Assembly: GCA_020740775.1 (NCBI GenBank)
Contig: JAHEWK010000007.1
Location: 1,984,001-2,048,000 of the forward strand
Direction: 5' to 3'
DNA from: Ilyonectria destructans
Taxonomy: Eukaryota > Ascomycota > Sordariomycetes > Hypocreales > Nectriaceae
Length of the DNA: 64,000 bases
In this document: positions 11,337-15,324 of the stretch, piece by piece
How positions within the stretch are numbered: position 1 is the stretch's first letter
Layout: each line of letters begins with the position of its first letter
Program-made: the position numbers and the translations under genes
The notes under the pieces: generated by a model
Databases searched by the model: none
Seen by the model: only the letters and a program-made list of their open reading frames with translations
Told to the model about the DNA's origin: nothing

Positions 11337-11741
11337 ATGTGCCATTTGCTCCAGTTGGCCGAACGGTTACCTAGTACCTAGTACGCCCCTGGCACACGTC
11401 CTCCCTGAGGGTGTGTATCCAAACGATTTTCCCAAACGGGTAAGTATACGTAGCGCGTAGTCGTAGGTTCAAGTCTTCATCATGTGAATGTTCTTTTCTT
11501 TTTGGTTCCTTCAAACAAAACAAGGTGAATCCTGCTTCGTCTTCAACTTTCTTTTTTAGTCACCTTGGCGCAAACTGCAGCATGCTCAAGTGCACACGAG
11601 ACAAACAGCCCTGAAACTTGAATCTGCTGAGGCTTACTTCGTTTAAATATTGACGGGCAAGGACGTTGCCAATCCTCCTGGAGTGTCTCGACACCCATTC
11701 GCAACCTTGATGAAGCGTGCACGGCACGTGCGGCTCACGTC

Positions 11742-11775
11742 TACGGTCGCACATTACCACATGGGTGACAAAACC
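11742..11775 (+). repeat. left terminal inverted repeat of the integrase transposon
   Basis: 34 bp beginning TACGGTCGCACATTACCA and ending GGGTGACAAAACC. It matches the reverse complement of 15285-15318 at 33 of 34 positions. Confidence 0.9.
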
Positions 11776-12032
11776 ATGTACGAAAATGACTGGAGCTATT
11801 TCGCACATAGGCTTTCGGCGTTTTTATATGGGGCTACAGTATTGATATGATAGCGCACTGTTTTCAATGTAGCAAAGCTGATGCCATACCAAGCGGTGCT
11901 GATGCCATTCCATCGGCGCCGAAGCTCCGATAATGCCGGTTCAGAGGGGGATATTGCAGCTGGAAGCCTTGGAAGGAGGTATGAATTCCGACCTCTACCA
12001 CGATCTCGAACCCCTGGTCTGCGTCTCGTACA

Positions 12033-13731
12033 ATGCCGAGGCCCCGTAAAGACTTGGAGGGCGTCAAGGACTGGATCCTCGAGCAGCGGCGAGAAGGACT
12101 ATCCATTGACACTATATGTGCCCATCTCCGCGACGATGGGCACGTACTCGACGCCAGAACCCTGAAAAGGAGGTTAGCGGAATGGGGTGCACAGGAGTAC
12201 TCCCCCCTTCACTCAAAGATTGATACCAACACCTTCGTCGAGCTGATCAAAGGCTACTTCTACCGATACGGATATAGCGACACTTCCATCGTCCGTGATC
12301 TCAAGCGACGCGGCATCGAGATCTCCGAGCGGACTGTACAGGAGTATCGTCTGAAGCATGGCATGAAGCGGCGCTTCCGAGATCTGACTGAACGACAGGA
12401 TGCTATTCAAAAAGCAAGAGAGTTCCTCTTCCAAGACGACCGTCAATCTTCAAGCATCAGAGGATTTGGCAGGGGGTATCTATACCACTACGTCCGCATC
12501 CGTGCCGGCGTCCTTGTCGGCCAGAATACCTTATATCGCGAGTACCAAACGAACCCAGAGTGGAAGAAGCGGGCCGAACAAAGACGCCTTGCTGATTGGA
12601 AGCACCGGAAGAACTTCCAGGTTCCTGGGCCTAACTTCATGTGGTCTCTCGATGGGTACGAGAAGCTCAAGAACTTCGGCTTCTCTATCTACGCCTGTAT
12701 CGACACGTACTCGAGAGCCATCATCTGGATATATGTCGGCAGGGGGAACATGACTGCGCTGAGTTCACTCAAACAGTTTCTACGGACCGTGTCGTACTCA
12801 GGGGTCCGGCCCCTTTTCACCCGCTCGGATCATGGTATCGAGACTCCTCTTTGGGCCGGAGCCCAGGCGATTCTCGCCGACCTTGATCAGACAGAGTTTC
12901 GGTATACCACCGATGATAACGACCAACGAGTCCATAGGCAGGGAGCGAGACTGAGCTCCTGTCATATCTGGGGCCCAAGCACATCGAACCAACGGATCGA
13001 GTCTTGGTGGGAAAAGCTACTTAAAGGTGTCAGTCAGCGCTGGATCGCGTTCTCACACGAGCTGATTGATAGCGGCCTCTTCCAACCAAACCGTCTTGCT
13101 CACCAGATCGCGGTGTATGCTCTCTATGGACCCATGATCCGTCAAGAGGTTGCGGACTTCACGGAGATGTGGAACGGCCATCGCATCCGGCCACAGAAGA
13201 ATAGGGAGCATCTCGTCGCCGGGATCCCAATGGATCTGTATAATACAAGCGAAGTGGAGAACTGGGCAGTCCATCTAGGGCCTGCGGCTCGAGATGGGCT
13301 TGCCCAGATGATGGCCGCTGTCGATTCTATCGATATAGACGATCTTCTTGACCCAACAACAACAGACTGGTGTGATCAACAGCTCCGGGATCTTCAGTTC
13401 GGTGGTCAGCTAGATGGGGAGCTTGATCATAAGCGACCACACCTCGCAATCTACTTACGGCTTAGAGACAAGATTCAGGTTCATCTCGACTGCGGGGCAA
13501 GTCCGGTGCTGAGCATCCCAGAGAGTCCAGTTGGAGGGCAAGAGAGATTCGTACGTAAAAAAGTACTCTATCGCACTCAAAAGCTAGCTGACAATGCTTT
13601 AGCTTCAGCTCCTCGAGCAGAACTACCTTGAGCCTATTAACAATAGCCTCTCCGGAACTGGGCTACCTGGCGATATTATCAATAGTGTAGACGAGCTGAT
13701 GGGGGACCTGGGTCACCTTGAGCTAGAGTAA
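12033..13731 (+). CDS. integrase-core DDE transposase, 548 aa, two exons
   Basis: Exons 12033-13550 and 13603-13731 are separated by a 52-bp intron (GTACGT...CTGAC...TTTAG). Reading through instead of splicing would give a shorter, unlikely tail. Residues ~8-52 look like a fungal Clr5-type helix-turn-helix (WILEQRREGLSIDTICAHL...LKRRLAEWG), and ~68-112 form a second helix-turn-helix-like segment. The catalytic core runs from ~195 to ~345, with D207 in MWSLDGYEKL, D266 in TRSDHG and E323 in SNQRIESWW, the classic third integrase motif. The D266-E323 spacing is longer than the retroviral 35 residues. The region after the core is unassigned. The start is the first ATG of the frame. The gene sits inside inverted repeats with a target duplication, so it most likely catalyses the element's own transposition. 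A domesticated integrase-like protein is the alternative. Confidence 0.85.
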
Positions 13732-13734
13732 CTA

Positions 13735-14985
13735 CTATTTCCTCGTCTGTTTATGAGGATGCCGACTACTTGGCCTCCTCGTATTAACTCCTCGGGTTCC
13801 AGCAGCGGGACCATGGGCAGTGAAGGCAGGGCCAGCCGAGAGCTCCGTATCCTCTGCCTCTACCGAGAGTGCTGAGCTTATAGAGTCTCGAGCTCGTTTC
13901 TGACCCGCGCGGGTCTCGTCCACGTCGCTAGTAATAACCTCGATCTGGTCTTCTGCGCTAGCTCTCGAAGGGGGTAGAACTGGGCTCAGAGAGGGGCTCA
14001 AGGAGGGCGAGTTGAACTCGCTCCCGATTAACAAGGCTGGTTGTACCTTCACTTCGGCCTTGACTAGCTCTTTCTTGATTCCTTTCTCCTTTTTGAACGG
14101 CTTTACGGCTGACCTCGGTGCCTTGATATGACGAGGGGCCGGGAATTGTGGTCGAGGAGGCAATGGCTCATAGAAGACAAGGAAAAGGAGATATCTGCCC
14201 TCTGTTTTGCTGAAACGAAAAGGGCAGTCCTCGCCGAAAAGCTCTGCGACTGTCTGTCTCTCCCAGTCGAGGTCGCTCAGCTCCGTGATACCCTCTTTAA
14301 TATGGGCGTTCTGAACGAGTCTCTTGTCGAATTGAAGAACAGAAGAGAGGGCAGGCTTGTCCTTGAACTGAGGGAAGAAGATGCTGTCGAACCAGAAGTG
14401 GACAGGTAAAGATGGTTCCTCGTCGACGAAGGGGCGCAAAGCGACCTTCAGCAGCTCTCTAGCCAAAGACCACTGGGGCTCCTCGTCTTCGTCTAGTATT
14501 TCCCATGGGCCAGGCCTCGCAAGGAAGACGGTGAGGCGCATCGAGATCTTCCGTCTGCTCTTGTTTTGGCTCTGTTTAGCCACAGCCTCACTGAGTTGCA
14601 ACGAGCTCGCCCCCATGCCCCTCGCGATCCGACTCTGCGTAAGTTTGGCATCTCGATACACGGCGGAGGGCCGCGATGCTGCGAGGATACGGCCAGGGCC
14701 GTCTCCAGAGCCGGTGAAGATCGTCTGTGAGGGCGTGGAACGATCAGAGGCTGTTAGGTCGATAGACTGTATAGCGGAGGAGGTGGAAGCTGTCTCAACG
14801 TCTCGAAACGGGACTGGCGAGCTGTCGAGGATGGAGATACTCGTGGGCCAACGTCTCCCGCAATATGGACACAGATTCGACCCTGGGTAGCTATCGCGGA
14901 TGAAATCGTGGCTCCGTTGGTACGATTTAGGGGCCACGGTCTTCGGAACATCGGGACATGTCTGCGATAGGACGTGATCGGGCAT
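13735..14985 (-). CDS. transposon-borne protein of unknown function with CPYC motif, 416 aa
   Basis: I do not recognise a named family. The ATG is at 14983-14985, and an upstream AG acceptor-like sequence leaves open a short extra 5' exon. The N-terminal ~45 residues hold NLCPYCGRRWP, half of a zinc ribbon or an RTC4-like CPYC signature. Residues ~50-125 are Ser/Thr-rich, and a folded stretch (~145-265) contains the segments FWFDSIFFPQFKD and YLLFLVFYEPLPP. The tail is Lys/Pro/Ser-rich and probably disordered. The stop codon lies 3 bp from the stop of the transposase gene, in convergent orientation, and the whole gene lies within the inverted repeats. This makes it the second gene of the transposon. 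A DNA-binding or accessory transposition role is inference only. Confidence 0.75.
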   Translation of the reverse strand: MPDHVLSQTCPDVPKTVAPKSYQRSHDFIRDSYPGSNLCPYCGRRWPTSISILDSSPVPFRDVETASTSSAIQSIDLTASDRSTPSQTIFTGSGDGPGRILAASRPSAVYRDAKLTQSRIARGMGASSLQLSEAVAKQSQNKSRRKISMRLTVFLARPGPWEILDEDEEPQWSLARELLKVALRPFVDEEPSLPVHFWFDSIFFPQFKDKPALSSVLQFDKRLVQNAHIKEGITELSDLDWERQTVAELFGEDCPFRFSKTEGRYLLFLVFYEPLPPRPQFPAPRHIKAPRSAVKPFKKEKGIKKELVKAEVKVQPALLIGSEFNSPSLSPSLSPVLPPSRASAEDQIEVITSDVDETRAGQKRARDSISSALSVEAEDTELSAGPAFTAHGPAAGTRGVNTRRPSSRHPHKQTRK

Positions 14986-15284
14986 ATCTACGTACAAGAC
15001 AAGGTCAGTCGCACAATCTCATGATGGATAGACCCGAGCTTACTTAGGGAATCGATGGGGATAGCCCATAACAGCTATGGGGTGGCGATGGGCTGGGTAT
15101 TGATGCTGGTGTGGATGTGCGAGTGGAAGAATTGTGACGCGTCACCAGGAATTATCACGACATATTTCCTGGTGGACATGCCATCTAAATGAAGAGATAC
15201 CTTCCGGATAGTGTGCGATACTGTAGTCTTGCAAGGGTCCACAAAATTACTAAGTATTTCCACATGGTTGAGGCTTCCCAAAAG

Positions 15285-15318
15285 GGTTATGTCACCCATG
15301 TGGTAATGTGCGACCGTA
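15285..15318 (-). repeat. right terminal inverted repeat of the integrase transposon
   Basis: Reverse-complement partner of 11742-11775 with one mismatch. The flanking CACGTC (15319-15324) repeats the hexamer at 11736-11741 in direct orientation. Confidence 0.9.
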
Positions 15319-15324
15319 CACGTC

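Follow-up and report, generated by a model that had tools for sequence, protein, structure and literature searches.

A compact two-gene DNA transposon of Ilyonectria destructans, apparently autonomous and recently active, assigned to the IS3EU superfamily

A stretch of 64,000 nucleotides from the fungus Ilyonectria destructans (assembly GCA_020740775.1, contig JAHEWK010000007.1, positions 1,984,001 to 2,048,000 of the forward strand; hereafter the window) contains two genes framed by inverted repeats, and raises the question of which kind of mobile element they belong to, whether it has moved, and what the second gene may do for it. The element is read here, with a probability of about 0.92, as an apparently autonomous, recently active DNA transposon of the IS3EU superfamily. 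It spans positions 11742 to 15318 of the window (3,577 bp) and is flanked by perfect CACGTC hexamers. Its features are the following:

11736..11741, no strand: left target-site duplication (TSD) CACGTC
11742..11775, plus strand: left terminal inverted repeat (TIR), 34 bp, with outer TACGG and inner AAAACC (11770-11775)
12033..13550, plus strand: transposase exon 1, from ATG, 506 codons, with N-terminal helices and a DDE core with D207, D266 and E323
13551..13602, plus strand: predicted transposase intron, 52 bp, GTACGT..TTAG
13603..13731, plus strand: transposase exon 2, including the stop codon, by splice prediction
13735..14985, minus strand: gene 2, open, 416 amino acids (aa) from its ATG, tail to tail with the transposase gene
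15285..15318, minus strand: right TIR, matching the left TIR at 33 of 34 positions
15319..15324, no strand: right TSD CACGTC

The original prediction, which had been made from the letters of this DNA, claimed 34-bp inverted ends, perfect flanking hexamers, a spliced integrase-core gene with the three acidic residues and a second intact gene facing it tail to tail, and all four were recovered at these positions.

Removal of the predicted intron gives a transposase of 548 aa, and this spliced form has the length and the C-terminus of the homologue P0003, which supports the intron. Protein queries were made with the unspliced 532-aa reading (P0001), the last residues of which are intron-derived. 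The transposase shares the integrase fold, and in an alignment of 34 rows (the query and 33 of its 34 protein-search matches) D207 and D266 were invariant and E323 nearly so. Its nearest NCBIfam families were IS3 (E 4.6e-8) and IS481 (E 4.4e-5), both with scores far below the curated cut-offs, and its profile gave no match to PDB sequences at E 0.1. Assignment to IS3EU was made by those published defining features of the superfamily that were compared: the element has TA..TA ends, a 6-bp TSD, TIRs longer than 30 bp, a transposase lacking the HHCC domain, and IS3 as its best bacterial family.

An integrase of a long-terminal-repeat retrotransposon or of a self-synthesising lineage, as in Ginger-type or Maverick-type elements, would have the same fold; such an origin is very improbable here, and the original prediction had also placed the element outside both groups. 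Polintons (Mavericks) carry a DNA polymerase and other large-element genes, whereas the window element fits its two genes into 3.6 kb, and the Pfam matches of its two proteins include no polymerase. The available parts of PMC10045372 state that Polintons likewise produce 6-bp duplications, which is in favour of a kinship, but they give 4 or 5 bp for Ginger1 and Ginger2, against 6 bp here. The TA..TA ends and the proximity to IS3 and IS481 also argue against it, as does the unspliced 532-aa reading, which has no C..C pair and hence none of the HHCC N-terminal domain of Ginger1.

The only mismatch between the two TIRs is at position 30. The outer TACGG and an inner AAAACC or ATAACC (TIR positions 29-34) were found at the same offsets in the family of the window element (family A) and in two related families, B and C, for C at its left end; a right end of the C element was sought and not located. 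The TIRs look bipartite, which suggests two transposase contacts. In the genome searched, which was the assembly containing the window (71.7 Mb, 74 contigs), the 29-bp end occurred 46 + 43 times with up to three mismatches, and this recurrence is not due to chance because the same pattern read backwards gave no occurrence. For the outer 14 bp alone, 50 + 45 occurrences were counted, exceeding what the TIRs of families A and B explain. Additional copies of these 14 bp were observed in tandem at the left end of one copy (L023) and 17 bp outside another (L010, position 4097), and the hexamers flanking copy L015 (C18:468761-473338), ATAACC and GGTTTT, are identical to the inner TIR hexamers. Excision footprints were considered for six solo 14-bp places and are not supported, as by eye none had equal hexamers on both sides; around the motif in two of these solo places, L081 and L084, the sequences on either side were nearly the same.

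The original prediction had also named many copies with the same ends and differing 6-bp duplications as a confirmation of mobility, and these were found. At least 32 near-full-length copies are present, a lower bound since the best 40 of 69 candidate places were scored. Perfect 6-bp duplications flank 15 of the 32 two-ended copies, and all 15 differ when read along the element. Twelve copies, that of the window included, are identical over 3,577 bp, while two have one difference and one has three; nine of these 15 youngest copies have perfect duplications. A 235-bp non-autonomous derivative with both ends (L048, C16:744061-744295) is flanked by CCCAAA, and a two-ended relic (L057) by TTCTTC. 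In the latter, C>T and G>A changes make up 723 of 761 substitutions, the pattern that repeat-induced point mutation would leave. Another stretch with two ends (L049) has no perfect duplication.

For 17 insertions the two flanks were joined and compared with the same genome, with the best 40 of 435 candidates scored, and uninterrupted paralogous targets with a single hexamer were found for three of them, at no fewer than 31 (L011), eight (L025) and one (L048) of the scored places. These empty sites were obtained within this genome, whereas the original prediction had proposed related strains as the place to look. The L011 target is itself a near-identical repeat. Spread by segmental duplication rather than by transposition would agree with the location of 27 of the 32 copies on contigs shorter than 1.2 Mb, but the copies end at their TIRs, no two of the 15 perfect hexamer pairs are alike when read along the element and empty sites exist, so that this explanation has a negligible probability. 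Judging from these copies, the element is mobile and young, with 6-bp duplications, and the predicted youth stands on the 12 identical copies.

Three copies that differ by at most one base have mismatched hexamers that close a cycle when read in element orientation: CCCTCC..TAACGG (L016, contig C15), TAACGG..ACGGCC (L018, contig C30) and ACGGCC..CCCTCC (L021, contig C18). The left flank of L021 joined to the right flank of L018 matches an uninterrupted sequence with one ACGGCC, beside the L048 derivative, at 94% over 237 bp; among the loci compared, no uninterrupted match was seen for either of the remaining joins. Because the hexamer cycle is closed and an uninterrupted ancestral target exists, the cycle appears to reflect ectopic recombination between near-identical copies on different contigs. 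Misjoining of contigs inside identical 3.6-kb copies is judged less likely, though it is a serious competitor: misjoins happen in just such near-identical copies, and the young copies L014, L015 and L022 also have unmatched flanks with no partner found. Against it, the cycle formed by the three hexamer pairs is perfect, and nine of the 15 youngest copies retain perfect duplications, which shows that misjoining is not general. For the remaining 14 mismatched copies, exchange partners were looked for among the compared loci and not found. A hexamer common to L051 and L012, GACCCC, was taken as chance, as L012 has its own pair; GCTGTA is common to the flanks of L052 and L061.

Both the exchanged flanks and the recurrence of the gene pair, described below, are additions to the original prediction. 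Gene 2 had no Pfam or NCBIfam family above cut-off, and an in-frame 5' exon was looked for and none was found. As a query it retrieved only five database homologues. In the same genome, family B has transposases 66-76% identical to that of the window at five loci, and convergent gene-2 homologues at all five; its ends begin TACGG, with the TSDs ATGGAC (L068) and CCTTGG/TCTTGG (L067, 5/6 matching). Through a weak match of gene-2 residues 17-60 (E about 0.1), another group of open reading frames (ORFs) was reached, in which the gene-2-like ORF L071 adjoins a transposase, L072, about 35% identical to that of the window. The database homologues of this second gene-2 group are from Ilyonectria and Dactylonectria. 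Profile comparison linked the N-termini of these groups with one alignment pair (E 3e-5, probability 73%) and their middle parts with a second (E 5e-5, probability 67%).

A survey by similarity to two single proteins, in which non-matches may be misses or true absences, gave 38 gene-2-like loci: 24 with a convergent transposase within 4 kb, one with a non-convergent transposase and 13 with none listed. The 24 pairs correspond to the 24 transposase rows most like the L072 transposase (at least 61%). Eleven of the 13 loci lacking a transposase are of a short type with a 196-aa open frame; the one of these that was retrieved, L078, has CPHC and IDLT. The dN/dS (ratio of nonsynonymous to synonymous substitution rates) of gene 2 was 0.24 between A and B (179 codons; the B copies are degenerate) and 0.33 between C and D, while that of the A-B transposases was 0.07 with saturated dS. 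On these comparisons the gene pair is recurrent in two divergent transposase clades, and gene 2, under purifying selection, appears to be a long-standing partner of the transposase. That it is a universal partner of IS3EU transposases is a hypothesis. By eye, IS3EU-like transposases stand beside hAT-like ORFs at L068 and L070, apparently as nested insertions. Two pieces are 95% identical to proteins of the element: P0005 of Verticillium dahliae, on a 2,329-bp contig, covers 69% of the transposase query, and P0039 of Fusarium oxysporum covers 47% of gene 2. They would reflect either horizontal transfer or contamination of short contigs.

Gene 2 could instead be a captured gene that takes no part in transposition, or have been acquired separately in the two clades. 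Its faster divergence than the transposase, the absence of a recognised family, the weakness of the profile link between its groups, the 47 of 71 transposase rows beside which no gene 2 was detected and the alpha-kinase and TET/JBP genes borne by rust-fungus IS3EU elements (PMC12730594, available parts) favour this. It is nevertheless unlikely, since the same tail-to-tail position recurs beside transposases about 35% identical and at all family-B loci, the dN/dS values are low, the order of motifs is common to the representatives, and a search based on single proteins is expected to miss members.

The protein of the window has CPYC at residues 39-42, IDLT at 75-78 and [VILMF]KxE starting at 297, 303 and 308. 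Five representatives (A, C, D, E and F) all have CP[YH]C preceded by an aligned upstream histidine, and all have [VI]DLT 14-36 residues past the start of CxxC (five seen, 0.08 expected). The [VILMF]KxE motif is clustered towards the C-terminus in four of them, with 14 occurrences in all. Whole-protein shuffles gave an expectation of 1.4, none of 5,000 reaching 14, and local shuffles one of about 1.7, none of 3,000 reaching 14 at any of the three window sizes used. The control patterns gave three (reversed), one (R for K) and none (D for E), and four transposases had 0, 0, 0 and 1. These counts are to be read with the facts that the patterns were picked after viewing the sequences and that C and D are 57% related, which makes the five less than wholly independent. 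We take CPxC to be zinc-knuckle-like, [VI]DLT to resemble a SUMO-interaction motif and [VILMF]KxE a SUMO site. The lack of any KxE motif in F, degenerate family-B pieces with CPYC and, by eye, no IDLT, and L071, which lacks an upstream cysteine present in its close relative P0041, speak against universal motifs.

Several observations, besides the feature-based assignment itself, weigh against the overall interpretation. A matching duplication is absent at 17 of the 32 two-ended copies, and the flank cycle accounts for three only; 47 of 71 transposase rows (mostly at most 46% identical to L072) have no gene-2-like ORF listed nearby, and the 5-kb locus L070 (C37:29800-34800) shows none. In the structure model of gene 2, high confidence is limited to roughly residues 4-48, and the mean pLDDT (predicted local distance difference test) is 36; this mostly low-confidence model gave no useful structural match, and the gene-2 profile none among PDB sequences at E 1.

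For transposition, the spliced DDE transposase would bind the two bipartite ends through the outer TACGG and inner AAAACC and bring them together; the element would then be released or copied, and its ends joined to target phosphates 6 bp apart, giving the 6-bp duplication. Catalysis, end binding, cut-and-paste as opposed to copying, and the role of gene 2 are inferred from sequence. The most probable role of gene 2 is that of an accessory protein acting together with the transposase, and a function as adaptor to chromatin or host factors is favoured. A more speculative proposal, which we hold only tentatively, is that it represents, as prototype, an old family of SUMO adaptors encoded by transposons: the zinc-knuckle domain would fix it to DNA or transposase, and the SUMO-interacting motif and the cluster of sumoylation sites would link the transpososome to the SUMO system of the host and thereby steer the choice of target, repair or the evasion of silencing. 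If so, a SUMO adaptor would be an accessory strategy common to divergent ascomycete IS3EU lineages. Neither a link between IS3EU and SUMO nor this element was described in the portion of the open-licence PMC literature that was covered. In that literature the superfamily is known mainly from sequence, and this intact, very young, compact element is a candidate for a first activity assay; gene 2 recurs with divergent IS3EU transposases, and there is a testable idea of its function.

In comparison with known systems, IS3EU/GingerRoot elements are defined, in the available parts of PMC10045372 and PMC12730594, by a 6-bp TSD, TA..TA ends (TAYGG..CCRTA in fungi) and TIRs longer than 30 bp. The window element has the same TSD and TIR lengths, ends TACGG..CCGTA, a DDE transposase without HHCC, a core related to IS3/IS481 like their DDD/E core, and a second gene in opposite orientation; in view of this match, the suggestion in the original prediction of an undescribed kind of transposon does not hold. 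Bacterial IS3/IS481, the nearest NCBIfam families, differ from the window element by its intron-bearing eukaryotic gene and its two convergent genes. In the TET+ IS3EU families of rust fungi the second gene is an alpha-kinase and a TET/JBP gene lies between (PMC12730594, in part), neither of which was matched here. Styx of Zymoseptoria, as presented in the available parts of PMC10853768, is IS3EU-derived and recently active, with a 36-bp TIR and a 6-bp TSD, and is linked to chromosome rearrangements; its 7,927 bp hold four ORFs (transposase, GATA-like, CCHC-like and DUF3577), in contrast to the two genes in 3,577 bp described here, and its proposed ancestor encoded two proteins. The three-way flank exchange, if true, would represent transposon-mediated exchange between contigs, in parallel to the rearrangements associated with Styx.
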